Part shown: piece after piece, positions 15,269-64,000 of the stretch
Layout of the letters: every line of letters starts with the position of its first letter
Position numbering within the stretch: the first letter of the stretch is position 1
NCBI GenBank assembly: GCA_019454045.1
Contig: SKCR01049635.1
Coordinates: forward strand, 124,001 to 188,000
Direction of reading: 5' to 3'
From: Zanthoxylum bungeanum
Taxonomy: Eukaryota; Streptophyta; Magnoliopsida; Sapindales; Rutaceae
Length of the DNA: 64,000 nt
Position numbers and translations under genes: made by a program
The notes under the pieces: model-generated
The model's database searches: none
Seen by the model: only the letters and a program-made list of their open reading frames with translations
What the model was told of the DNA's origin: nothing

Positions 15269-17844
15269 ATGAAGGAAGTGAAGGCGGGCAAGGCTCCGAC
15301 TTCAGGTATGTTTGTTATTGAAATAAACATGTCTACTTCTAGTTTAAAAAATTGGATTTTTGATTCTGGTTGTGGTACTCATATATGTACTGATGTACAT
15401 GATCTGCAGATTAGTAGGAGACTGGCTTCAGGAGAGATCGACCTCCGAGTTGGAAAAGGGACTAGAGTCGCCGTTTTGGCTGTTGGGACCTATATTTTGG
15501 AACTACCCTCGGGGCATGTACTTACTTTATCAGACTGTTATTATGTACCTAGTTTGACTAGAAACATTTTATATGTATCTTGTTTGACCCAATGTGGGTA
15601 TACTTTTGTATTCATAAACACATGGTGTTTTGTTTATAAAAATGATTTTGAGATATGCAGTGCTGATGTTAATAATGGTCTTTATATTTTGAATATAAAT
15701 CAATCTCAAACATATAACATGACAAACAAAAGGCTCAAAATGAGTAAAATAGATGAAACTTATCTGTGGCATTGTCGTCTGGGACACATGAACAAGACTC
15801 GTATATCCACACTTTCGAAGAGTGTATACTTAGACGGATTTGATAAAAATTCATATGACGTCTGCGAATCTTGTTTATTAGGAAAGATTCATAAAACACC
15901 TTTTAGCGGTAAAGGTGTTCGGAAAATTATGGTTATGTGTATCTAATGAGACACAAGTCGGAAAATTTTGAGAAATTCAATGAGTTTCGACACAAAGTAG
16001 AAAAACAGACCGGTAAAAGTATTAAAACATTGCGGTCGGACCGCGATGGAGAATACTTGAGCAATGAGTTTCTTGATTACCTGAAAGAGTATGGTATTCT
16101 TTCACAGTGGACTCCTCCCGGAACACCTCAATGAAATGGTGTGTCCGAACGGAGAAACCAAACTTTGTTGGACATGGTAAGGTCAATGATGAGTCGCACA
16201 GAGCTACCAATTTCCTTATGTGGATATGCATTGAACAGTGCAATACTTATTTTGAATAAGGTTCCGTCAAAGTTTGTTCAACAGACTCCATATGAAATAT
16301 GGACAGGAAGGAAACCGATTTCTCATTCCTGAAGATTTGGGGATGCTTGGAATACGTTAAACGTTTGGATGGTACCAAACTAGAACCCAAATCGGATAAG
16401 TGCCTATTTGTAGGTTATCCTAGGGAAACCAAAGGATATTACTTCTACAACCCACAAAAGAACAAGGTATTTGTTGCTCTACATGAGGTCTTCCTCGAAA
16501 AGGAATTCCTAAATGCAGTGGTAAATGGGTGGAAAGTAGAACTCGATGAAAATCGGAGTGATACTGTTTCTGGCACCGATTCCTTAACGGAACATGAATA
16601 GTTCATCAGAGATGAGACTGTACTATAATCTTCTGATACACAAGAAATGCGTAGATCGGAGAGAGTCAGAAAATAACCTGAGAGGTACGGGTTTGTGATC
16701 TCACCTCATGTGGATATTAATCTTATTGAGGATAATGAGCAGGCTATATATGAAGAAGCGATACAAGGTATCGACTCCACTTTATGGCAAGATGCCATGA
16801 AGTCCAAAATGGATTCCATGTATACCAACCACGTCTGGGCACTGGTTGATGCACCAGATGGCGTAAAGCCGGTTGGTTGTAAATGGGTCTTCAAGAAGAA
16901 GACTGACATGGATGGAAACATACAAACGTACAAGGTAGGCTTGTAGCGAAAGGGTATCGTCAATGACATGGTGTCGATTACGATGAAATTTTTTCACCTG
17001 TTGCCATGATTAAATCCATTCGGATAATGCTTGCTATTACTGCATATTTCAATTATGAAATATGGCAGATGAACGTCAAATCTGCTTTCCTTAAAGGAAA
17101 CCTTTTGGAGGATGTTTATATGCAATAGCCTGACGGTTTTGTCGTACCAAAACATGCAAACAAGGTTTGCAAGTTAAATCAATCCATTTATGGATTGAAG
17201 CAATTATCGCGTTCTTGGAACCAATGTCTTGATGAGATCATAAAAGAATATGATTTCATTCAAAATGAAGATGATTCTTGTGTATATAAGAAGGTCAGTA
17301 GGAGCGCACTAACATTCATTGTCCTTTACATTGATGATGTATTGCTTATTGCCAATGACATTCCCATGCTACAATCGGTGAAAGCTTGGCTTTCATTAAA
17401 ATTCTCCCTGAAAGATCTCGGAGAAGCAGCCTTTATTCGGGAATAAGGATCTACTGGGATAGATCTAGAAAGCTGCTTGGACTCTCCCAGAGCTCGTACT
17501 TTGACAAAGTGTTGAAGAGATTCAACATGGATCAGTCTAAGAGGGGACTGCTGCCAGCGTCATATGAAGTCTCTCTATCTAAGGACATGTGTCCTAAAAC
17601 TAAAGATGAGAGAGATAACATGAGTCAGATCCTGTTCGCTTCTGCTGTCGGATCGATCGTGTATGCCATGATATGTATGCGACCTGATGTCTCATACGCT
17701 TTGAGCATGTGCAGTCGCTATCAGGCTGATCCAGGTGATGGTCACTGGGTTGCGGTTAAAAACATTCTTAAGTATCTTAGACGAACTAAGGATGCTTTCT
17801 TAGTCTATGGAGATGGAGAACTTGAGGTGACTGGATTCACCGAC
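15269..17844 (+). pseudogene. Cop2 pol, 5' part (protease, integrase, RT, start of RNase H)
   Basis: The protease active-site region is WIFDSGCGTHICT (about 15353). The pre-integrase zinc domain ends CRLGHMNKTR...CESCLLGK (about 15770-15885). A deletion then joins FSGKG to MVMCI near 15920, removing the integrase residues that Cop5 keeps (HSDLYGP to FTDDAS), including catalytic Asp. The integrase resumes at 15937 ([12 protein letters not shown]). Stops lie at 16132 and 16944, and a frameshift at about 16310. RT contains YIDDVLL (about 17325). RNase H starts at about 17400 and is cut after GFTD by Tat1. It cannot act as a polyprotein. Confidence 0.9.
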
Positions 17845-18334
17845 TGTAGACAGCAGAAACTGACGATGTTGTTCTAGGCTCGCGGCCTAGTTGGGAGTAC
17901 GAAATAACATGGAGTCGCCACCCGGTGTGAACCGGGACAAAGATTTAAGGCCGCACTCACCCCTCGCAAGGGAAGACCTCAAACCGTTGGGTTCGGAATG
18001 GTCCCTTACTTATGTCACTTGTGATGATATGATTTGTGCAATGAATTAATCAAGTCTACTCAATAATCATGCTCAAGGATACTTAGATCTAATCATGCTT
18101 TCATCCAAATAACTCCACGTAATGTAACACAACGAGCATATTGAGCCATTAAATCAACATGTATAAATCATTATCCTAACACATCATAAACTAATAATAT
18201 GCATAAGGAACAACCTAAATATGCTTTAACAAATAAATAACAAACTAAATTATACCATGCTTTAAATAATAAACGAATAACCTAAAGACTATAACATGCT
18301 CAAATACAAATTTGGATGAGACGAGATACGTGCA

Positions 18335-18442
18335 TCTTAAGTGGTACATGTCATTGTATCCCGAGGGCAGACCATACTACCGTCCATTCGGAATCGGCTA
18401 TGGAATTTACGTCCGAGTTTCCATCCGATATACCACAAAAGG
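18335..18442 (-). other. Structured 96-bp block, copy A (Tat1 3' LTR)
   Basis: The core 18341-18436 opens GTGGTA and closes TACCAC, which pair. Two A's on each side form an internal loop, and outer TCTT (18335-18338) pairs with AAGG (18439-18442), one pair being G-U. Inside, ATCGG plus ATGGAA (18393-18405) pair with TTCCAT plus CCGAT (18419-18429). Four more copies are at 25670, 32072, 62589 and 63501. The two overlapping plus-strand frames here are a side effect of high sequence conservation. Function unknown. Confidence 0.75.
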
Positions 18443-19256
18443 GAACATATATCCCGCTCATCCAACAATCACATCATGCCTCAAACGACTCTCATGCAAT
18501 TATATACCAAAATAAATAAAATAAAAATAAAGAAGATAAGTAAAAAGGGTGCCCTCAGGTCTAACCTCTTTTGTCGTCTCAAGAAAGGGCGTTACACGTC
18601 CGTTGGAAGGGAGATTGATCCAATGCTTTTCCGATTTGTCTACTCAACGTCTTTCCTCGCTGCTTTGATGCTCGGGCTGCTGTTTCAAGTCCGTTTTGCT
18701 GCTGTTTCGCTGCTACGTTTCAGGTCACTGTTTTGGTGATTTAGTGGACTGTTTTGGGCGATTTGGAGGGCTTAAGGGTTGCGGTTTCCTAAGGTATTCT
18801 AGGGGAACTCTATGCAGATTTTTAGGATGGTGTCTAGGTGATTTTAGGACTGTTTTGTGGGCTATGGACGCAACAAAAACTGACCAGAACAGAAGGTGAA
18901 CTGCGGCAGTTCACAGGTGCAGTGAGGGCGTTTTAGTGGCTACTTTGGGCGCTGAATTGGGGCTATGAATGGGGGTATTTTGTGCGACCTTGGGGCTGTA
19001 TTAGAGGCTTATTTTAAGGTGTTTTAGGGCTGTGAATGGTGGCTGGAACTCGGCAATGGAGGGCTGTGTTTCAGGCTTGGGCGTGAGAGGGGATTGGTGA
19101 AGAAGAGGAGATGCGGCAATGGAGGTGTCTTGGTTTGGTGTTGCGGCAATGGAGGCTTTAAGGAGGGCTTTGGGCGTGTGATGGAGGCTTCAAAAAGTGC
19201 TTGGACGTGCTTGATAGAGGGATATGTGCTAGGGTTTGAATGGGTGGTGAAGGCTT

Positions 19257-19267
19257 CTTTTTATAGG
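19257..19267 (-). promoter_or_regulatory. TATA box of the Tat1 3' LTR
   Basis: The minus strand reads CCTATAAAAAG, a strong plant TATA match, repeated exactly in the other LTR at 26586-26596. Transcription should start near 19230 and run toward lower coordinates, placing the 96-bp block in the transcribed LTR leader. Confidence 0.65.
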
Positions 19268-19980
19268 CAAAGAGAGGAGACTTTCCTTATTAGATTAGGA
19301 AAGAATCTCCTAATTGGTGTCTAACAAGGAATAGATCTCCTAATTGGGATTTGTGATTGGATTTGATCTGGTAAGGATTTGATTTGATTTCTTCTAATTA
19401 GGAATGGATTTTATTTGATTTAAACATGTGATAAATATGCATTTACCTATTTAGAAGGCATTTGGGCGTGAATCACTCTCCCTTGGGCATGGATTTGGTT
19501 TGACTTGGTTTGATTTGGGTATTTGGGTTTGGTTTGGGTTTGGTAGGTGGTCTATGGGGGTTTTGGGCCTAAGATGAGCTTTGAAACGGAAGTCCAACAA
19601 ACAACCGAAGCTAAACAACGAGGTTAAATCCAAGGAAAATTCCATTTTCCAACTTTACCCTTCCAACGTCCGTTTCCCGCGACTTTCATGACTAAAGAGG
19701 TAGTTGCCTGCATATGAGACTCATCATTGGGCTAATGTGTAAAAATGCAATGCCTACAGTCGCCCCCACTTTGATGGGACTTGTGCAGTGTGTGACAATG
19801 ACAATCTTATCAAAGTACATGCAATGCATTTTCACTTACCTGGCTCGCCAGCTGCCACCTGATTTGCCTGCTGTTTCGAACTGAGTTGATTGTGCGATGG
19901 GTACCTCGACCCTGGGACGCATCCCGGAACTGCTAATGACAACTGGGGCACCTCGACCCTCGAACTGATGATGTACTGGG

Positions 19981-20522
19981 CACCTCGACCCTGGGTACGC
20001 ATCTCGACCCGGAACTACAAACGACAACGGGGGCACGCATCTCGACCCTGGGCACGCATCTCGACCCAATACCGCTGACAATAGGGACCTCGCCCTGAAT
20101 ATGATGATGTAGTGGGCACCTCGACCCTGGGTACGCATCTCGACCCGGAACTACAAACGACAACGGGGGCACGCATCTCGACCCTGGGCACGCATCTCGA
20201 CCCAATACCGCTGACAATATGGACCTCGCCCTGAATATGATGATGTAGTGGGCTTCGCCCCTGGGCACGCATCTCGACCCGGAACTACAAACGACAACGG
20301 GGGCACGCATCTCGACCCTGGGCACGCATCTCGACCCAATACCGCTGACAATAGGGACCTTGCCCTGAATATGATGATGTAGTGGGCACCTCGACCCTGG
20401 GCACGCATCTCGACCCGGAACTACAAATGAAAATGGGGGCACGCATCTCGACCCTGGGCACACATCTCGACCCAATACCGCTGACAATAGGGACCTCGCC
20501 CTGAATATGATGATGTAGTGAG
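19981..20522 (-). repeat. 136-bp minisatellite in the Tat1 3' region (four copies)
   Basis: Units start at 19981, 20117, 20253 and 20387 (periods 136, 136, 134 and 136). Each contains two or three copies of ACGCATCTCGACCC and a GAATATGATGATGTAGTG end. The array lies between integrase and the 3' LTR. Plant Tat-lineage elements are known to carry variable tandem repeats there. Long open frames across it only reflect the repeat (a stop-free GC-rich unit) and should not be called genes. Confidence 0.93.
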
Positions 20523-20655
20523 CTTCGCCCCTAGACTGATACTGATATGGGCCTCGCCCCCAGACTGATGCTGATTATGGGCCTTGCCCCCAGACTGATA
20601 CTGATGTGGGCCTCGCCCCGAACTGATGTGGGCCTCGCCCTCAAACAGATACTGA
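20523..20655 (-). repeat. Short GGGCCTCGCCCC repeats beside the minisatellite
   Basis: Roughly 30-bp units of GGGCCTCGCCC followed by CAGACTGATACTGAT recur about five times, a different period from the neighbouring array but sharing its CTCGCCC word. Similar words reappear at 21555 and 21640. Confidence 0.8.
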
Positions 20656-21875: not shown

Positions 21876-24308
21876 TCAGGCAAAATACAACTTCAATCTG
21901 TCAATATTGATCGGCTCGGTGAACTCATTCCCTTCCAAGTCTGACACTCTCATTGCTCCATTTCCCATTACCTTCTGAACAATGTATGGTCCTTCCCAAT
22001 TTGGTCTGAACTTCCCTCTTGGGTCTGTCGTCGACGGCTTCGACTGCTTAAGCACTAAATCACCCTTCTTGACTTTAGAAGGACGTACCTTCTTATTAAA
22101 TGCTCGGGCTAACCTCTTCTGATACATTTGCATGTGATGCAAGGATTTCATCCTCTTCTCGTCCATCAATGCTAACTGCTCAAACCTCTGCGAGGTCCAC
22201 TATCATTCAGGCAACTCCGCTTCTGCTAATACCCGTATGGACTGTATTTCAACTTCCACCAGTAATACCGCTTCCATTCCATAGACCAAAGAGTAAGGCG
22301 TAGCTCCTGTTGCTGTCCTCACAGAAGTTCTGTACCCCCACAGGGCATATGGTAGCTTATCAGCCCAATCTTTGTAATTCTCTATCATCTTTGCCAGAAT
22401 CGTCTTTATCGTCTTGTTGGCTACTTCAACTGCTCCATTAGCTTGCGGCCTGTATGGTGAAGACTTATGGTGACCTATCCCATACCTCTGTAACATTGCT
22501 CTGGTCTCTCCCTGAAACTGGACTCCATTGTCTGTGACCACGTGGTGCGGCATACCATACCGATAAATGAGATTCTGAGCTATGAACTTGGCCATCTATT
22601 TTGCCGTAACATTGCAGAACGACTCGGCTTCTACCCATTTCGAGAAGTAATCCACTGCCACCACTATAAAGCGATGTCCGTTCGACGCATTCGGCCGAAT
22701 TTCTCCGATCATATCTATTCCCCATACTGAGAAAGGCCACGGTTCTGACAACCCGTGCAACTCCGTGAGCGGAAAATGATTCAAATTCCCATGCGCTTGA
22801 CAATCATGGCAGTGTTTCACCAATTTCGCGCAGTCAGTTTCCATGGTTGACCAGTAAAAGCCTTGCCTCACAATCTTGCGGGACAAGTTCAATCCGTTCA
22901 TATGCGGTCCACAGACACCAGTATGTACTTCTTCCATTATCCTCTGAGCTTCTTCCTCCCTCAAATATTTCAGCTGAATACCATTGGCCTTCCTCTTGTA
23001 GAGTTCTCCCTTCAGACTCACATACTGAGAAGCCCATTTCTGAATGGCTATTCGGTCTTTTCTATTAGCTTCATCTGGGAGTTCCTTATGCTCCAGATAC
23101 CTCTGAATATCATGATACCAAGGTTTTCCATCGTTGACCTCTATTTCCGATACCCGCTCTATCTCATAAATAGGCTTACTCGCCGTCGTCAACACAAGTG
23201 GTCTCATCACCAATTTCTCTTGATTCTCCCAGGTTGCGGCTAGCGTCGCCAATGCATCTGCCATCTGATTTTCTTCCCGAGGCAAGTGCTGAAATTTACA
23301 GTTAGGGATAGCCTGTGCTAGGTTTCTGAGGTGGAATAAGTACGGCTTCAACCGTTCTTCCTTTAACTCCCATTCTCCTTGCATCTGTCGGATCACCAAA
23401 ATCGGGTCTCCATAAACCTCCACGTTTGTAGCTCTCAAGGCTGTCAATGCAGTCAACCCAAATGCACATGCTTCATATTCAGCCATGTTATTAGTTACTC
23501 CGAATGTTAGCCTTTTGGCCATAGGCAAAGTCTCTCCCCCAGGGGTTACTATTATGATTCCGATTCCGGCTCCTTTACAGTTCACTGCTCCGTCAAAATA
23601 CATCTTCCATCCTTGGACTGCTATAGCTTGGATTTCTTTGTCGGGGAACTCAAACTTGTACTGATCCCCTTCGACAGGTTGCAATGCCAAGAACTCTGCC
23701 ACGGCTCGTCCTTTAATCACCTTGGAAGTGAGATACTCAATATCAAATTCTGTCAGCAGTACCAACCATCTGTCCAATTTTCCAACTAGTGAAGGCACTG
23801 AATGCAGGTACTTCAAAGGATTCTCCTTTGCGACCACTTGGATCTTGTAAGACTGGAAATAGTGGCTTAATTTCCTGGACGCCCATACTACTGCCAGACA
23901 AATCTTCTCCACTTCCTGATAGCGAGCTTCGTACGGAAGCAACTTTTTACTGAGGTAGTAGATGGCGTGCTCTACTCCTATCTCATCGGCTTGTACCATC
24001 ATCGCCCCCAGCGCTTCGGGTTCAATAGCCAAATGAAGCACCAAAGGTCTGCCCTGTTTCGGAGGTCTCAGAATGGGAGGTTTCACCAAATATTCCCTTA
24101 TTCTGTCAAATGCTTCCTGACACTGCTTGTTCCACTTTACCGACTGATATTTCCTCAACAACTTGAAGATAGGCTCACACACTGACGTCAACTTTGCAAT
24201 GAACCGACTGATATACTGGATTTTCCCAAGGAATGCTCTGACTTTTTTTTTTCTAACCCAACGGGTATCCATGATGGCTTTTAAGACACAAGGGTTAACA
24301 TGATGCAT
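21876..24308 (-). pseudogene. Tat1 pol: RT end, RNase H, second RNase H, integrase
   Basis: Reading the minus strand from 24308: the last RT residues and GFLG-like FLGKIQYISRFIAK, then the Gypsy RNase H (ALGAMMVQ, YQEVEKICLAVVWA), then a second RNase H (YFDGAVNCKGAGIGI, TNNMAEYEAC, REENQMADALATLA). The integrase zinc finger (HTGVCGPH...CHDCQ) and core (WGIDMIG, VTDNGVQF, NKTIKTIL) follow, then the C-terminal NWEGPYIVQ domain. The second RNase H marks the Tat lineage. An in-frame TAG near 22596 and two adjacent stops near 22190 break the frame. Gag, protease and nearly all RT are absent upstream. Confidence 0.95.
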
Positions 24309-25150: not shown

Positions 25151-25170
25151 GATCCCCAGTGGAGTCGCCA
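25151..25170 (-). other. Tat1 primer-binding site
   Basis: The minus strand reads TGGCGACTCCACTGGGGATC, three bases (GTC) from the LTR end. It begins TGG as the complement of a tRNA CCA end. I do not assign the tRNA with certainty. Confidence 0.85.
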
Positions 25171-25173
25171 GAC

Positions 25174-27087
25174 TGTAGACAACAGAAACTGACGACGCTG
25201 TTCTAGGCTCGCGGCCTAGTTGGGAGTACGAAATAACATGGAGTCGCCACCCGGTGTGAACCGAGACAAAGATTTAAGGCCGCACTCACCCCTCGCAAGG
25301 GAAGACCTCAAACGTTGGGCCGTTCAGATGGTCCCTTACTTATGTCACTTGTGATGATATGATTTGTGCAATGAATTAACCAAGTCTACTAATAATCATG
25401 CTCAAGGATACTTAGATCTAATCATGCTTTCATCCAAATAACTCCACGTAATGTAACACAACGAGCATATTGAGCCATTAAATCAACATGTATAAATCAT
25501 TATCCTAACACATCATAAACTAATAATATGCATAAGGAACAACCTAAATATGCTTTAACAAATAAATAACAAACTAAATTATACCATGCTTTAAATAATA
25601 AACGAATAACCTAAAGACTATAACATGCTCAAATACAAATTTGGATGAGACGAGATACGTGTATCTTAAGTGGTACATGGCATTGTATCCCGAGTGCAGA
25701 CCATACTACCGTCCATTCGGAATCGGCTATGGAATTTACGTCCGAGTTTCCATCCGATATACCACAAAAGGGAACACATATCCCGCTCATCCAACAATCA
25801 CATCATACCTCAAACGACTCTCATGCAATTATATACCAAAATAAATAAAATAAAAATAAAGAAGATAAGTAAAAAGGGTGCCCTCAGGTCTAACCTCTTT
25901 TGTCGTCTCAAGAATGGGCGTTACACGTCCGTTGGAAGGGAGATTGATCCGATGCTTTTCCGATTTGTCTACTCAACGTCTTTCCTCGCTGCTTTGATGC
26001 TCGGGCTGCTGTTTCAAGTCCGTTTCGCTGCTGTTTCGCTGCTACGTTTCAGGTCACTGTTTTGGTGATTTAGTGGACTGTTTTGGCGATTTGGAGGGCT
26101 TAAGGGTTGCGGTTTCCTAAGATATTCTAGGGGAACTCTATGCAGATTTTTAGGATGGTGTCTAGGTGATTTTAGGACTGTTTTGTGGGCTATGGACGCA
26201 ACAAAAACTGACCAGAACAGAAGGTGAACTGCGGCAGTTCACAGGTGCAGTGAGGGCGTTTTAGTGGCTACTTTGGGCGCTGAATTGGGGCTATGAATGG
26301 GGGGTATTTTGTGCGACCTTGGGGCTGTATTAGAGGCTTACTTTAAGGTGTTTTAGGGCTGTGAATGGTGGCTGGAACTCGGCAATGGAGGGCTGTGTTT
26401 CAGGCTTGGGCGTGAGAGGGGATTGGTGAAGAAGAGGAGATGCGGCAATGGAGGTGTCTTGGTTTGGTGTTGCGGCAATGGAGGCTTTAAGGAGGGCTTT
26501 GGGCGTGTGATGGAGGCTTCACAAAGTGCTTGGACGTGCTTGAGAGAGGGATATGTGCTAGGGTTTGAATGGGTGGTGAAGGCTTCTTTTTATAGGCAAA
26601 GAGAGGAGACTTTCCTTATTAGATTAGGAAAGAATCTCCTAATTGGTGTCTAACAAGGAATAGATATCCTAATTGGGATTTGTGATTGGATTTGATTTGG
26701 TAAGGATTTGATTTGATTTCTTCTAATTAGGAATGGATTTTATTTGATTTAAACATGTGATAAATATGCAATTACCTATTTAGAAGGCATTTGGGCGTGA
26801 ATCACTCTCCCTTGGGCATGGATTTGGTTTGACTTGGTTTGAATTGGGTATTTGGGTTTGGTTTGGGTTTGGTAGGTGGTCTATGGGGGTTTTGGGCCTA
26901 AGATGAGCTTTGAAACGGAAGTCCAACAAGCAACCGAAGCTAAACAATGAGGTTAAATCCAACGAAAATTCCATTTTCCAACTTTACCCTTCCAACGTCC
27001 GTTTCCCGCGACTTTCATGACTAAAGAGGTAGTTGCCTCCATATGAGACTCATCATTGGGCTAATGTGTAAAAATACAATGCCTACA
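25174..27087 (-). mobile_element. Tat1 5' LTR, 1,914 bp
   Basis: It has the same length and ends as 17845-19758 and is nearly identical. The 96-bp block is at 25670-25765 and the TATA box at 26586-26596. The flanking CCGAC (27088-27092) completes the target duplication in Cop2 RNase H. Frames at 25641-26068, 26423-26653 and 26780-26974 repeat those in the other LTR and are not genes. Confidence 0.96.
25664..25771 (-). other. Structured 96-bp block, copy B (Tat1 5' LTR)
   Basis: The core 25670-25765 has the same pairing as copy A, with GTGGTA/TACCAC, the AA/AA internal loop and the inner hairpin. As the partner LTR it is not independent evidence. Confidence 0.75.
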
Positions 27088-29449: not shown

Positions 29450-30144
29450 TGTATTCCCTTCCATGATCTGATTGTAGAGTTTTGATCATCTTACCTAATT
29501 GTTTGTCAACCTCAGCACAATACTATTTGAACTTTTCAAAAGTATCTGACTTGAACTTTTGAAAAGTATCTGACTTATATTACATTAGGTAAAAATACCC
29601 ATATCTTGAATAATCGTCAATAAATATGACGAAGTATTCATAACCGCCTCGGGCTCTTACATTCACCGGTCCACAAATTTCTGAATGTATTAGCTCAAGT
29701 GGTTGATTGGATCTTATACCTTTTCCAAGGTCTCTTGGTCATCTTTCCTTCTAGACATGATTCACAGCCTGGTAAAGTTCCAAGCTTTAACTAGTTTAAG
29801 GCTCTATTTTTTATCAACCTATCTATCCAGTCAAGGCTGATATGACCAATTCTAAGATGCGACAAATATGTGTCGTAGTGAGAAATATTTTACCATTTTG
29901 TTTTAGGTTTTTCAGCCTTAAACATTTCAGTGTTGAGGAGTGACCTGTGTGTTAACGATCTTAACACATATAAATTATTTTTTGAGTTTCCTGTGTATAT
30001 GGTTAATCTATTTCTACAAACAATAATCAAATTACTATTAAAAGAAACCGAAAAATCATCATCCAAAAATTTGGAAATAGAAATCAAATTCCTGCAAAAA
30101 TCAGGAATGAATAACACATTGTCTAAATTTAAATAACTATTATT
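29450..30144 (-). pseudogene. Cop3 pol fragment (pre-integrase and integrase start)
   Basis: The minus strand encodes the end of protease/pre-integrase (FIPDFCRNLISISKFLDD, near 30100) and then the integrase core region (GGYEYFVIFIDDYSRYGY, near 29600-29660) with stops and frameshifts. The sequence differs clearly from the Cop1/2/4/5 type, so this is another Copia lineage. It is cut at 29450 by the Cop2 LTR, and RT and RNase H are absent. Confidence 0.85.
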
Positions 30145-31179
30145 TTAAAAAAAATTCGAAACTCCCACTGCTCTTGCTAAAACTGAATCCCATATCCCGA
30201 CCTTCATGGTGTAGTCACCATCAACAAGGTCCCTCCATAGGTCAAGTAGCTGTAAAGAAGAACAAACATGGTTAGTGGCTCCAAAATCAACAATCCATGC
30301 AGATTTATCACCCTCCATTAAAAGAGATTCGATAACAAGTAAATCATATTTATTTGTAGCCTTCTTCTCTTTCAGCTCAGCAAGGTTTTTAAGACGTTTC
30401 CTTTTCCAATGTACGTTTTTGTCGCAGTGGAAACACTTTCCCTTGGGCTTGGTAGTTTTAGAGCATTTCTTGTTCTTGTTCTTGTTCTTCTTCACAGGCT
30501 TCGCCTTAGCCTTCCCAGTGCCTGTCTTCTTGTTCTTGGCAGATGTAGAAGATTCTGCAACATTTGCCTCAACACTGAGCTTACGAGGATCCACAAGCAT
30601 AGACTCATAATGGTGAGCTCATTAAGAAGCTGGGTTAAAGTAAAAGACAACTTGTTGATAACATATTTGCTTTTAAACTGCAGGAAACTCTTTGGAAGAG
30701 TTTCCATAATCATGGTCACGTGGCTCCGCACGTCATTACGAGCTCCATGGGTTTCGATAGTATTGAGATAGGTCATCATCCTAAAACAAGCTCTCGGACT
30801 GATGTCCCTTCCTTCATCGTAGCAGTCATCGCTGAGACCAGAGCCTCATGACGCTTACGCTCTGAAGACTGTCCAAACATACCGTGCAATGACTCCATCA
30901 TCCGAGATACTGTAGTCATAGGCTCATGCTTTGCAGGAAGAACCTCAGACATCCCTGCTAACAAGTAGCAGTGGACCTTCTCATTAGTCACGACCCATTT
31001 TTGGTAGGCATCGTGTACAGCCTGGCTAGTATTTTTGGCCGACTCGGGAGGACATTCCTCCATTAGGACAAACTTAGGTCTTCAGTGACCAGGATAACGT
31101 TCATGTTACTTTTCAATTTGACATAATTTTCTCCCGTTAATTTATCGTTAGAGAGAATAGAAATTATCGGAGAAACCAT
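30145..31179 (-). pseudogene. Cop3 gag and protease
   Basis: The ATG at 31177-31179 opens MVSPIISILSNDKLTGENY, typical of Copia gag. A frameshift occurs near 31070, then EECPPESAKN and KWVVTNEKVHCYLL continue in another frame (30776-31063), then two more frames to 30145. A lysine-rich stretch (KAKPVKKNKNKNKK), a zinc knuckle with a damaged end (CFHCDKNVHWKR) and a protease start (WIVDFGATNHVCSS, normally DSGA) follow. It is non-functional. Confidence 0.88.
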
Positions 31180-32575
31180 GGCTGAAATAAAATAAAGTAA
31201 ACATGTATTTAATATTCATCACATAATTAAATATCAATCATTTTGGCATAAAATTAAATATGATGCATGGACCATGAATAATGAATTAGAAGCCCAAGAG
31301 AATTACTATGCCACATAAATCTATCACCCCACAAATAAGTGCCATTGTATGGTAGGTCAAGTATTTGCATGATAGATTGAGAAAATCTCGATTGATTAAT
31401 ATATATGGGAATAACTCTTATTCCTATATTAACCAACCACCGTTTGATTTGATCAAGGAATTTTGATTAACATTTAATCTTTCCTTTATGAGTGTGACCT
31501 GTCATTTCGGAACCCTTAGACTTAACTAGTGAAGTGCCGCTGTATGGTAGGTTAGTTCACCAGATACATTTAGAGTCCCTATCCTCTTGGAATCCAAACT
31601 TGATATTGACCCAAAATGGACACCATCCGCAGAGGGACGAAAACAAAGCCGTCTCGATGCGCCTTTTGAATCTCACGTTTTCAGACTAACAACAAAGATC
31701 GCAGGATGTATTGTTGTATATCCCTCTATCACTCACTATTTTAAAATTAAGGTTTCTATTTTAAAATATTTAATATTTTAATTTGCTAGTGTGAATAAAT
31801 TTATGGCGGCTAAATCATAACTCTAATTTACACTAGTACACTATTAGTGACCTTACCAGTTTTAACTCTTAAAATCTAACTTACTAATATCCATTAGTCT
31901 CTACTAATTATATTACTCAATTAAACTAATTTTAATTGAGCTAGTTTTAGTGACCTATTATATTTTTACTCTTAAAATATTGGAAAACTAACAAGTTTAA
32001 AATTTAAAATTATAAAGTGGTAAAAATTTTAATTAAACTATTTAATTAATCTAAGTGCGTTATAAAATCCAATGGTACGTGGAGTTGTATCCTGAGTGAG
32101 ACCATATTACCGTCCATTTGGAATCGGCTATGTAATTTACGTCCGAGTTTCCATCCTATATACTAATGGAATTCATGATGCACTTATTAAGCCCATTATA
32201 TGAGAATTTCCAATTTTAAACTATAAAACCAATTAATATAATTAATCATTTTTCATGCATACCATATTCCAATTTAACCATTTTAAATTATATAAAATCA
32301 TATTTTATGTCTAGAATATTTATGCAACCAAAGCATGTTATGACATGAGAAAATGCAAGAGTATGCACCCTAAGCTATATGACATGTTATTCAACATTTC
32401 AAATTAAACATATATACAACATAATTTTATTTTTATATTGACTGGGCTCTTACTTTTCCTATACTAATCTAATTAGTCCAAAAAATTCCCAAGGCATTCT
32501 TTGGTCTTCAAATCTTTGCTCCATAGTGGTGTTGGCTCATTTTGTGAAAAGGGTTAAGAACACTTTTCAACCTCT
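31180..32575 (-). other. Cop3 leader, containing structured block copy C
   Basis: About 1.4 kb of AT-rich sequence separates the primer site from gag. No gene is seen; the frames at 31254-31436 and 31587-31781 look random. The only distinctive part is the conserved block at 32072-32166. Confidence 0.65.
32068..32170 (-). other. Structured 95-bp block, copy C (Cop3 leader)
   Basis: The core 32072-32166 aligns without large gaps to the Tat LTR copies (CCGTCCATTTGGAATCGGCT against CCGTCCATTCGGAATCGGCT). Its ends TCCAATGGTA (32068-32077) and TACTAATGGA (32161-32170) pair over ten positions with one A-A mismatch and one G-U pair. Those bases differ from copy A but still pair. The host is a Copia leader, unrelated to the Tat LTRs. 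Confidence 0.7.
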
Positions 32576-32589
32576 CTCTTGATGCCAAT
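32576..32589 (-). other. Cop3 primer-binding site
   Basis: The minus strand reads ATTGGCATCAAGAG next to the LTR end GGTTCCTATA. It resembles the Copia consensus TGGTATCAGAGC (initiator tRNA-Met) with changes. Confidence 0.6.
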
Positions 32590-46818: not shown

Positions 46819-48503
46819 ATGAGATGAACCAGAAGCTTTGAACTTCGACCGCTTGACCCAGAAATTGAAAGAACCATCAGACAGTTGAGAAGGGAAAGTA
46901 GAGAAGGCCAAGAAGCAATCATTAAAATGGAACCTGAACCGTTGGAGGTTGCACCACCAATTCCCATTCGAGACAGAACCATTCCGGTGGTTGACAGACT
47001 CATTTCCTGTATTGTACTTCCTCCCTTACCAGCAAATACGTGTGACATCAAAACATGCATTCAGATGATTCAGTAGTCAGTTCAGTTCAGAGGGAATGCA
47101 ACTGAAGATCCTAATGCCCACATCAGTAACTTCCTGGAAGTTTGCGGTACTTTCAACTACAACAGAGCATCAGAAGAAGCAATGAGACTGTGTGTTTTCC
47201 CATATTCCTTGAAGGACAGAGCTAAAGCTTGGCTACATTCACTACCAGCAGGTTCTATCACAACTTGGAACACTTTAGCCACCAAATTTCTTGCAAAGTA
47301 CTTTCCACCAGCCAGAACTGGAAAGCTGAGGAATGACATCACATCTTTTGTGCAACAAGACTCAGAAACTCTCTACGAAGCTTGGGAAAGGTACAAAGAT
47401 TTTCTTCGGAAATGTCCTCACCATGAGATTCCAAAATGGCTTCAAGTCCAAACATTATATAATGGACTTTCTGGAATAATGAGAACCACAATCTATGCTA
47501 CTGCTGGAGGAGCCTTAATGGCAAAAGGAGAAGATCAGGCCTGGGACCTAATCGAAGAATGGCCAACAACAATTCCTTGTGGCCAACAGAAAGGAGCATG
47601 ATCCAAAGAATTGCAGGAATTTATGAAAGTGGAGCCAATACAGCAGTCAACGCCAAGCTAGATCAAATATGCAAATTCATGGAGACTCTTACCACTGGAT
47701 CCACAAGTTCACCATATGGAGGAGCACCAGAGTCGAACCAACTTGAAGAGACGGTGAATTATGTCAACAATTACAACAGACAGGGGAATAATCCATATTC
47801 CAACACCTACAACCTAGGGTGTAGGAATCATCCCAATTTTTCATGGAGCAACAATTCAGGCCAACAGCAGAACTATCCACCACCTGAATTCCAACAACAG
47901 AACAAAAGCCAGGAGCAGGAAAATGAACTAGGAATAACAGAAGTGTTGACCCACTTGAAAAAGATAGAAGCAAAACACGACTCTCAAACAACAAGATATG
48001 ATACTATGTTTCAATCTCAAGCAGCAAGATATGATGCTATATTTCAATCCCAAGCAGCATTAATTCAAAGTCAATATGCTTATATTAAAGCACTGGAGAA
48101 TCAAATTGGACAACTGGAAAATGCTCAGAGTTACAGACCGCCAGGTACCCTTCCTAGCAACACAGAGCCAAATCCAAGAAACATGGGGAATGAGCAATGT
48201 CATGCCATCATGATAAAAAGTGGTACTGAAATCAACAAAGATGTTGGAGCCAAAACAGCTGTTGAGGAAGTTTCAAAAGAAACAAAGCAACAGATGGAGG
48301 AAAAAGAAGCAAAGGAAAAAGAACAGATCATTCCACCTCCACCTTTTCCTCAACGTCTTCAGAAGAACAAATTGGACAAGCAGTTTTCTCGGTTCCTGGA
48401 GATCTTCAAAAAGCTGCATATCAACATCCCATTTGCAGAAGCCTTGGAAGAAATGCCTAGTTATGTCAAATTCATGAAAAACATTCTTTCACGAAAATGA
48501 AGA
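46819..48503 (+). pseudogene. Ath2 gag
   Basis: The frame starts just after a splice-acceptor-like TTCTTGTGTTTCAG (46790-46803). It has PLDPEIERTIRQL, PIPIRDRTIPVVD and then the retrotransposon gag domain (FPYSLKDRAKAWLHSLP, FLAKYFPPARTGKLRNDI, at about 47200-47340). The C-terminal half is Gln-rich and ends VKFMKNILSRK. Stops occur at 46825 (third codon), 47074 and 48498, and a 1-bp deletion near 47563 shifts frame. Gag would form the particle core. Otherwise it is well conserved at protein level. Confidence 0.92.
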
Positions 48504-61163: not shown

Positions 61164-61719
61164 TTACCGATTAAGATCTATGTCCAATTTACGCTTCTTA
61201 CCACGATCTCTATCTGACCAGCTCAACTTGGAAAGAATAGGGTCGATTTTGGTTCAAAGGCTTGGATTTTGTCAATTAATTCTTCGGTCTTTGTTGCAGT
61301 CAGGAAAATATCATGTACTGATTTTGTGACGAACTCATGTCTTTTTGCTTCCGCAAGAAATACAAACAGGAAATCGAAAGAATGTTCAATGTTGAGTAAT
61401 CCAATGGGCTTTCTATGAATGTTCAAGTGCGCCCATGATGCCACTGTGAATATTTCTTCAAATGTTCCGAGCCCACCTGGTAAAGCAATAAACGCATCAG
61501 CAGTATTGACCATTTCAAGGAGTTGTTCAGACATCCCCGAGACAATACGTTCATCTCCATTTGTTTTTCCGATTATATGTTCGTCCGCCAAAGTTTTTGG
61601 AATGATTCCCAAAACATGACTGCCACCATCCTGAACGGCTTTTGAAATGCTTCCCATCAATCCAAGATTGCCACCGCCATATACTAGGTGCATATTTCGT
61701 TCTGCTATGACTTTCCCCA
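61164..61719 (-). pseudogene. LOG-like (cytokinin phosphoribohydrolase family) gene fragment
   Basis: An open frame of 165 codons (61223-61720) matches the LOG family, whose members cleave cytokinin riboside 5'-monophosphates to free cytokinin. Visible motifs are LVYGGGNLGLMG (residues 12-23), SHVLGIIPKTL (34-44) and the signature PGGLGTFEE (81-89). The family's first ~35 residues, with FCGSS, are missing. The Arg-Lys of the usual MHxRKxxM is replaced (MSEQLLEM), so canonical activity is doubtful even in the source. After STLFFPS the frame stops, but the +1 frame reads on (LSKLSWSDRDRGKKRK) to a stop at 61164, so a 1-bp indel shortened it. No intron is visible, although plant LOG genes have several, which suggests RNA-mediated capture. 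Copia RNase H abuts upstream. Confidence 0.85.
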
Positions 61720-61913
61720 ATTAGGAATTTACGGATCCAAACTGCCTTTTTTGCTGCTTCAGCTGTAGCAATATACTCTGCTTCTGTTGTTGAATCGGCA
61801 ACTGTCTCTTGCTTGGAAGATTTCCAGCTTACTGCTCCGATATTCAAACAAAATATGTACCCAGATTGCGACTTACAGTCGTCTTTATCGGTTTAGAAAC
61901 TTACATCGGTAAA
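61720..61913 (-). pseudogene. Cop6 RNase H fragment
   Basis: The minus strand encodes Copia RNase H: GAVSWKSSKQETVADST then TEAEYIATAEAAKKAVWIRK, ending in FLI, where it runs straight into LOG-like sequence. The upstream edge (61913) is the Tat2 LTR. It is close to the Cop2 RNase H at 27095-27290 but better preserved. Confidence 0.88.
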
Positions 61914-62582
61914 TGTGGGACACAGAAACTGGATGACGCATGCTGTCCCGGGCTCGCGACTCGGTCGGGAGTACGGAGTAGCCACAGGGGACTAAACCGG
62001 AGAATAATGGAGTCGCCACCCGGTGTGAACCGGGAAAATGAGATTTAAGGCCGCACTCACCCCTCGCAAGGGAAGACCTCAAACCGTTGGGTTCGGAATG
62101 GTCCCTTACTTATGTCACTTGTAATGAAAGGATTTGTGTAATAATTTAATCAAGCTTAAGTAACACTTATTTCCAAGAGTATAATGCTTCTAAATTCATA
62201 TGCGCAAAAATAAAACTTACACCTAAATTTGCATATATTTCACATCTAAGATTGCATGCTTGAAAATACGTCAAAATAGCAACGAACATACAACTTCATT
62301 GGCATATTGTATTCATGGAAACACAAGCACACACTAACCACGCAAGCACACATAAAAGCGAATCAAATAAGGGCGAACATGTGATTTCATAGACATATCA
62401 TTCTTATATGTGCGGAAGCAAAAACAAATAGCCATTACATGTCCATGCGTAAATAAAAGGGTCAACTAAGTACATAATGCAAAAAGACACTTAAGGATGC
62501 AATTAGGCATTAAAGTAAGCATGCTATGACGTGGTGCAAATGAAGATAACTAATATGGACACAAACACACATGTGAGCACTT

Positions 62583-62690
62583 TTCCAAGTGGTACGTGTA
62601 ATTGTATCCCAAGTACAGACCGCACTACTGTCCATTCGGAATCGGCTACGGAATTTATGTTTGGGTTTCCATCCGATATACCACAAGAAA
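62583..62690 (-). other. Structured 96-bp block, copy D1 (Tat2 LTR)
   Basis: The core 62589-62684 has GTGGTA/TACCAC, the AA/AA internal loop and an outer helix TTCC/GAAA with one mismatch. The inner hairpin keeps ATCGG/CCGAT; ACGGAA against TTCCAT pairs through a G-U in the element-sense RNA. Confidence 0.7.
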
Positions 62691-62784
62691 TAATACTCAA
62701 ATGCTATCATGACATGGATATATGAATTGTAATACGTTAAGCCAAGACTAAGGGATAGATGATGCAATCAATATATGAAAGACG

Positions 62785-63425
62785 CGGCAAATATCGTAGT
62801 AAAGGTAGCTTTTTAGGCTTTTCTTTCCCCAAATGGAGAACCTTTTTAATCCAACACAATAAGCCCATGCACTTTTTATTACAATGCGTACAAAGATAAA
62901 GATAACTATATGAAACTTCGTATACCCGATTGAACACATCTTACATTCAACCGAATATACATCAACCGGCACGGCAAAGTATCGCGGTAAATGGTTTTAA
63001 CCCCTCCAAATAGGGGACCTTTAATCCGACTTACTAAGCCAATGCGCTCGATCGCATCATGCATACAAAGAATAAAGACAATAATATCAAACTTAGTATG
63101 CCCGATTGAACATATCTTACATTCAACCGAATACACATCAACCGGCGTGGCAAAGCATCGTGGTAAAGGGTTTTAACCCCTCCAAATAGGGGACCTTTAA
63201 TCCGAATTACTAAACCCATGCGCTCGATCGCATCATGCATACAAAGAATAAAGACAATAATATCAAACTTAGTATGCCCGATTGAACATATCTTACATTC
63301 ATCCGAGTATACATCGACCGGCGCTGCAAAACATCGTGGTAAAGGATTTGAACCCCTCAAAATAGGGGACCTTTAATCCAACTTACTAAGCCCATGCGCT
63401 CGATCACATCATGCATATAAACAAT
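62785..63425 (-). repeat. 177-bp tandem array in the Tat2 LTR (about 3.7 copies)
   Basis: CCCCTCCAAATAGGGGACC or close variants occur at about 62826, 63000, 63178 and 63354, giving periods of 174-178 bp. Each unit also has GCCCGATTGAACATATCTTAC and CATCAACCGGC. The first unit is the most diverged. The array lies between structured blocks D1 and D2. Confidence 0.9.
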
Positions 63426-63497
63426 AAACATGCGGAAATCAAGTGACGAATAATAAATAAATCAAAGCAACATAAAACAAAGAATGCACCGTTTACT

Positions 63498-63599
63498 CAA
63501 GCGGTACGTGGAGTTGTATCCCGAGTACAGATCATACTACCGTCCATTCGAAATCGACTATGAAATTTATGTCCGGGTTTCCATCCGATATACCGCGAG
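63498..63599 (-). other. Structured 96-bp block, copy D2 (Tat2 LTR)
   Basis: The core 63501-63596 is closed by GCGGTA/TACCGC. Both sides changed relative to the other copies (GTGGTA/TACCAC), so pairing is kept. The outer helix is CTC/GAG across an AA/GA internal loop. Two changes in the inner hairpin become G-U pairs on the minus-strand RNA. Confidence 0.75.
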
Positions 63600-64000
63600 A
63601 GTTGATACATCTTTCATTTTATTCCAAGGCCACAACATACAATATTTCGTAATACATGCATATTTATCTACTCAAGGGCCACAACATGCATTTTAACATA
63701 ATAACCATACGAACAATACTCAATAAATAATAAAAATAAAACTGAAAATGAGTGTGAAAAATACCCTCAGGTCTAACCTTTTTTGCCGACTTTCGGACTT
63801 GCGTTTCACGGAGATCGGAAGGGTTAAAGCTCCTTAACTTTCCCGGTTCACTGGTTTGCTTTTTCCCTCGCTGTTTCGCTGCTCAAGCCACTGTTTTGAC
63901 TTCGTTTTGCTGCTGTTTGTGATGTATTTTCTACTCACTGTTTCTGGACAGTTTCGGTGACTGTTTTGGGGTGTTTTAGTCTCGGTTTGGGGTACTGTTT

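Follow-up and report, generated by a model that had tools for sequence, protein, structure and literature searches.

A compact structured hairpin RNA is common to Tat elements of the Ty3 (Gypsy) superfamily and to Copia-type elements, as both the flank contexts and the reading of individual elements indicate, and we propose that it is a cis-acting hairpin that binds a host factor, has roles in the handling of full-length RNA and has been exchanged between lineages (probability roughly 0.45, slightly less than even). By sequence it belongs, as a fixed part, to the LTR retrotransposons that carry it; similar cores occur in three or more element lineages that are otherwise unrelated, and their place in the element varies. 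That such unrelated elements carry it suggests a single cell component that all of them reach by way of the hairpin. Each of the three lineages (Tat, Copia-type and Sirevirus-like) has its own Gag, and a host protein would therefore be the most likely common partner; a host RNA-binding protein would be the simplest choice, presumably with a role in the export or handling of unspliced RNA. The structured RNA lies in element sense, and its position suggests that it is present in the transcripts. Because it occupies both 5' leaders and a 3' non-coding position, a role in export, stability or cytoplasmic routing of unspliced full-length RNA would fit best.

The window, that is the whole 64-kb stretch of DNA analysed, contains five copies (c1 to c5; Table 1). 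Their cores lie on the minus strand, in element sense, exactly where the first-pass annotation had placed them (nhmmer E 1.8e-28 to 3.4e-33), and the near-constant length that it reported is confirmed (96, 96, 95, 96 and 96 nt for c1 to c5). A nhmmer profile made from the five copies found no sixth in the window, the next match having an E of 2.7. The covariance model R1, whose training set included four of the five window copies among others, scores the sense strand at 106-143 bits, while the opposite strand reaches no more than 21. All five copies are thus real, but they do not occupy five independent settings: c1 and c2 belong to the two LTRs of one Tat element, and c4 and c5 share a second Tat LTR; its U5 end agrees with that of the first element. 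Within this second LTR, c5 is the positional equivalent of c1, and its upstream flank clusters with those of c1 and c2.

Table 1. Hairpin copies and host-element features in the window
Feature	Position	Strand	Basis or remark
Hairpin copy c1, outer stem and core (core 18341-18436)	18312..18465	-	Fold, flank duplex, family covariation of outer stem
Hairpin copy c2 (core 25670-25765)	25641..25794	-	R1 142.7 bits
Hairpin copy c3 (95-nt core 32072-32166), somewhat decayed	32052..32186	-	R1 105.8 bits
Hairpin copy c4 (core 62589-62684), second copy within second Tat LTR	62567..62704	-	R1 140 bits
Hairpin copy c5 (core 63501-63596), first copy within second Tat LTR	63472..63622	-	R1 140.4 bits
3' LTR of Tat element, with c1	17832..19758	-	98.0% identical to 25160-27087
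5' LTR of same Tat element, with c2	25160..27087	-	TATA-like TATAAAA at 26594
Tat pol piece: RT RNase H, second RNase H (RVT_3), integrase zinc-binding domain	22596..24308	-	Pfam
Broken Copia-type coding region 3' of c3	29580..31179	-	Weak gag, Pol_BBD and integrase matches, under Pfam cut-offs

Structure and covariation of the hairpin

The predicted structure is larger than had been claimed, with about 20 outer pairs in the best-sampled family in addition to a rod-like core. Read from the base, it starts with a family-specific outer stem, a usually U-U/U-U internal loop and a helix GYGGUAU/GUACCRC (altered in Copia-type copies). A large internal loop, nearly constant in its letters, leads on to a rod formed by CCCGG/UCGGG, RUA/UGY, YCRUA/URYGR, GCCG/CGGU and UCC/GGA, usually closed by GAAU; the stem letters change with pairing largely kept. 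The paired ends first described for the five copies are present, yet they form just the inner part of a stem reaching roughly 20-29 nt on either side of the 96-nt core. The adjoining internal loop, originally given as purine-purine, proves to be mostly U-U/U-U once it is read in the element-sense RNA.

RNAalifold, applied unprompted to 23 representatives, returned a single rod-like core, in which 94.2% of cells pair and the covariation score is 0.242, against 0.055-0.088 for slid partners. A further 40 copies were retrieved once the structure had been fixed; among their cells 94.0% are paired and 61 carry double changes, as compared to 24.1 in shuffled alignments (0 of 500 as high) and 1-24 with slid partners; the asserted compensatory changes therefore exceed both kinds of control in this count. 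Pairs changed on both sides number 9 in these 40 copies versus 8.3 when shuffled (220 of 500 as high), indicating that the same few pairs carry the signal. Among the 23 representatives the number of double-change pairs is reached in 22 of 500 shuffles and that of further pair types in 444; the latter is also reached in 181 of 500 shuffles for the 28 outer stems of family A and in 171 of 500 for the later 40 copies. By these measures of pairs and pair types, which the counting tool describes as the safer ones, covariation is weak. On a tree of 129 copies, 15 double changes fall on the same branch, whereas re-pairings average 4.5 and none of the 2000 reaches 15. The rod alone (P3-P7) accounts for 7, a count that is not decisive, being reached by 84 of 2000 re-pairings and equalled by a slide of -1. 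A strict tree-based null retains 2 of 31 pairs at E<0.05 and, taken over all 5,778 column pairs, none; five of the six top-scoring column pairs belong to the structure. The claim of a conserved RNA with compensatory changes is thus upheld by the cell counts and by the tree, but not by the strict null for most pairs, nor for the inner helix.

This inner helix, in which ATCGG and ATGGAA had been paired with TTCCAT and CCGAT, was rejected. In the later 40 copies it does no better than shuffles (218 and 260 of 500 reach the observed pairing and covariation, respectively), it has one double change on the tree and none of its pairs is changed on both sides among the 23 representatives. Its 5' strand could pair in another way with the same 3' strand; this alternative is uninformative, since transitions keep such pairs as G-U automatically. 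The rod-like core fold fares better than the inner helix. Folding energies of the core with 0 or 6 nt of flank are weak, with z from -2.3 to +0.1 in sense and similar values on the opposite strand, and the Sirevirus-like copies take another minimum-energy fold once longer flanks are included.

The flanks directly outside the 96 nt pair in element sense, and their letters differ by family. In family A (28 copies), the outer stem has 20 pairs and is 92.3% paired, with 31 double-change cells versus 12.4 in shuffles (0 of 500 as high) and 4-7 with slid partners, and with 7 pairs changed on both sides versus 3.9 (16 of 500 as high). For the outer stem on the tree of 129 copies, there are 11 same-branch double changes against 5.5 (24 of 2000 re-pairings as high). 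In 7 of 13 representatives the outer duplex surpasses all of its shifted controls, and in 4 it does no better than 13-70% of them; in 8 of the 13 the sense strand gives a stronger duplex than the antisense strand.

The element-sense strand is also favoured by the kinds of change observed. Starting from Watson-Crick pairs on the trees, 84 core changes lead to G-U and 55 to A-C (p 0.009), and 32 against 16 do so in the outer stem (p 0.015), in agreement with the remark that several changes give G-U pairs in the element-sense RNA. Paired cells contain 708 G-U versus 101 A-C, or 225 versus 101 without the four nearly fixed G-U pairs (483 cells). Conservation is 0.947 in unpaired core columns and 0.892 in paired ones, and the value for the loop is overstated, since the search pattern behind 40 of the sequences fixes 18 letters, most of them in the loop, and touches 2 of the 31 pairs. 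Within families, in four hand-chosen sets, the core is 0.89-0.93 identical as compared to 0.73-0.82 for nearby flanks (28-110 nt away); between families, core identity is 0.78-0.90 and the flanks are near the shuffled background.

Host elements and exchange between lineages

The element bearing c1 and c2 has a second RNase H before its integrase (Pfam), an arrangement that we take to be the mark of the Tat lineage, and the TATA-like box of its 5' LTR is located about 830 nt ahead of the c2 core. Several other features were observed around these LTRs. A stretch of about 148 bp near the 3' ends of the two Tat LTRs (17909-18054 and 62007-62154) is 94% identical in LTRs that are otherwise divergent; it is a strongly conserved part of U5. 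Between c5 and c4 there are three tandem copies of a unit of about 175 bp (62884-63428); by folding energy alone, a single unit gives -43.7 kcal/mol in element sense and might represent another structured RNA. Next to the first Tat LTR, tandem repeats of about 136 bp (19905-20532) overlap an open frame, and next to the second lies a piece of a Lysine_decarbox/LOG-type host gene (61223-61720, minus strand). Elsewhere, the window includes a plant C/D snoRNA, snoR71 (47323-47429, minus strand, 47.4 bits).

The leader of a Copia-type element contains c3, which has a PBS-like sequence near 32588, identified by eye, on one side and a gag-like start at 31179 on the other. The coding pieces follow the copia order, all with scores under the cut-off (Retrotran_gag_2 18.5, Pol_BBD 20.2 and rve 13.8 bits); the frames are broken, two of the six pieces have no Pfam match and the first ATG is about 890 nt past the hairpin core. 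The third lineage is represented by locus L204, the one locus of its family that was read. Five GGGGGAG tracts are found downstream of its hairpin, the last at an LTR-like end starting with TG, with a TATA box beyond; multiple PPT copies upstream of the 3' LTR, a Sirevirus trait, are thus present as DNA tracts at this one locus. We call L204 Sirevirus-like because the tracts and the LTR-like end fit the arrangement outlined in the abstract of PMC2829016. The L204 hairpin precedes the 3' LTR by about 1.45 kb, within 3' non-coding sequence. The suggestion that a 5' leader RNA would contain the block consequently applies to Tat and Copia-type elements, but not to the Sirevirus-like family.

The hairpin is abundant. 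The gapped pattern GGATGGAAACN{50,60}GGATACAA occurs at 62,593 places in the 3.96-Gb assembly (31,342 + 31,251), and its reversed control at none. Flanks of about 110 nt on each side were read for 40 of the first 45 among the matches listed (first contigs), five being skipped since their core resembled a neighbour's. Recurring contexts account for 39 of the 40: two Tat LTR sites, a Tat-linked site and the Copia-type leader. By upstream flank, 23 copies group with c1, c2 and c5, 10 with c4 and 4 with c3. The downstream flanks of L193 and L209 group with that of a third copy in L133, which there follows a Tat LTR end. L204 stands alone among the 40 by flank and belongs to a high-copy family: with a 314-nt L204 query, all 40 scored matches span flank, core and flank (itself included; the others 93-97% identical). 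The first table of copies left out six that were partial or cut.

Core comparisons, in which families were assigned by a rough flank rule, point to exchange. The nearest relative of the Sirevirus-like core is a Tat core (93.8%), and that of the Copia core L107, outside its own family, is the core of a different Tat family (91.8%). The c3 and L186 cores are 0.887 and 0.897 identical to the Sirevirus-like core, a closeness similar to that within their own family, and more than one path of exchange would agree with these values. Judging from these similarities, two or more transfers of the core between lineages are likely; recombination or template switching would presumably be the route. Tentatively, one may go further and regard it as in effect a plant constitutive transport element, a single hairpin for binding a host factor, exchanged at least twice among unrelated LTR retrotransposons of both superfamilies, re-seated on a new pairing stem each time and now present in more than 60,000 copies in one genome.

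Alternative explanations

A packaging or dimerisation signal, recognised by Gag or through shared particles, is the least improbable of the alternatives, though we think it unlikely. Retroviral packaging regions contain several hairpins. A location within the 5' leader, as in Tat and Copia-type elements, would suit such a role, as would the many Tat loci with two copies and the one with three (45 and 1 of 90 fetched loci). However, the Gags of three lineages would need to recognise one motif, and the usual apical loop, GAAU, is not palindromic. The confinement to the 5' leader that is expected of a retroviral-type packaging signal is not seen either, as the high-copy Sirevirus-like family has its hairpin before the 3' LTR at the one locus read.

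The hairpin might also serve translation in a long leader, by internal entry or a ribosome shunt at the stem, which we hold to be rather improbable. The leaders are indeed long, with the hairpin about 0.8-1.2 kb after a TATA-like box assumed to be the promoter (further TATA-like motifs exist), and in c1, L103 and L107 a short ORF ends 5-6 nt before the assumed base of the stem. This arrangement is inconsistent, being found in just 3 of 11 representatives, and the shunt was set aside; nor does a translation element fit a 3' non-coding position.

Identity between cores from different lineages reaches 94%, which implies that exchange happens and raises the question of a functionless passenger, homogenised by recombination between elements. 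We give this little credence: the exchange of cores leaves unexplained both the pairing of outer stems that differ in sequence and the higher identity of the core within families.

Short inverted ends and presence in unrelated elements could equally evoke a DNA-level inverted repeat or a MITE-like transposon inserted into several elements, but this is very improbable. Instead of scattered insertions, which would have undermined the RNA reading, they recur in a few families: 39 of the 40 sampled copies lie in few recurring contexts and the 40th represents its own family. With joined Copia flanks, 40 places were scored; 35 show a pair of half matches separated by 65-98 nt of unread sequence, 2 have one half, and 3 (L226, L224 and L225) match across the junction, without a core-sized gap. 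L226 keeps the 3' half of the core, which nhmmer detects there. By alignment, L224 and L225 keep about a dozen bases of the 3' end of the core and lack part of the 5' stem, and nhmmer did not find the core in these two. From their sequences, all three look like deletions and not like ancestral empty sites. Unrelated sites with empty counterparts, as expected of a MITE, were not found among the copies sampled and the places scored. Moreover, outer stems that differ in letters and yet pair are the reverse of what a MITE would give, and the G-U excess is strand-specific. A free transposon was therefore rejected. L224 and L225 are on different contigs, are alike over the 398 bases read and share the same deletion of most of the core; a hairpin-less Copia copy may thus itself have been copied.

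A self-cleaving ribozyme of an undescribed class is equally hard to credit, despite nearly constant loop letters and variable outer stems, since the ribozyme-like fold first envisaged matches no described ribozyme in Rfam at threshold and cleavage in the leader would presumably destroy the genomic RNA.

Comparison with known systems

Rfam 15 has no match to the hairpin, its near-misses being far below the cut-off. Two exact patterns and one gapped pattern had no match in IMG/VR; another gapped pattern had 14, which are unlike the block (best E 0.74). In bacteria, 79 matches to 16-mers, by estimate about the number expected by chance (best profile match E 0.005), were dropped. In the literature, at the level of titles and abstract openings, we found no description of such a hairpin common to unrelated elements.

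Sireviruses offer one point of comparison. According to the abstract of PMC2829016, they have PPT copies, CGG-CCG repeat boxes, an inverted repeat at the PPT/3'LTR junction and an integrase signal. Like these motifs, the hairpin is a highly conserved non-coding sequence in divergent plant LTR elements; they belong, however, to one Copia genus, and that abstract names neither this hairpin nor a sharing with Ty3 elements. Retrozymes, as presented in a portion of PMC4918200, are small non-autonomous elements with hammerhead ribozymes in plant LTRs of about 350 bp. Retrozymes and the present hairpin are both cases of a structured RNA motif within plant LTRs, but the hairpin has no hammerhead match in Rfam.

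The route by which unspliced RNA of plant LTR retrotransposons leaves the nucleus and enters particles is an open question. A recent review notes, in sections of PMC12786077, that direct work on the export of LTR-element RNA in plants is lacking. If the host-factor reading is true, RNA-level modules would move between the Ty3 and Ty1 superfamilies, with outer stems that differ by family and still pair, and the hairpin, a compact RNA kept across unrelated plant elements in tens of thousands of copies, could be used as bait for the host factor. The same sections of PMC12786077 describe plant pararetroviruses whose structured 5' leader (about 482-608 nt) recruits TREX. The hairpin resembles this leader as a structured RNA of a plant retroelement, with export as its candidate role; unlike that leader, it is compact, common to LTR elements and also found outside leaders. 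Closer in kind are the RTE of mouse IAP, the MTE of musD and CTE-type elements, which, again from those sections, mediate export of full-length RNA via host factors. The plant hairpin differs from them in lacking an Rfam match and in having cores in three lineages and two superfamilies. It is, as they are, a structured cis-acting RNA on LTR elements, and the likeness may extend to its role; by this analogy, the IAP RTE and the musD MTE would be its nearest precedents (PMC12786077, in the sections cited).
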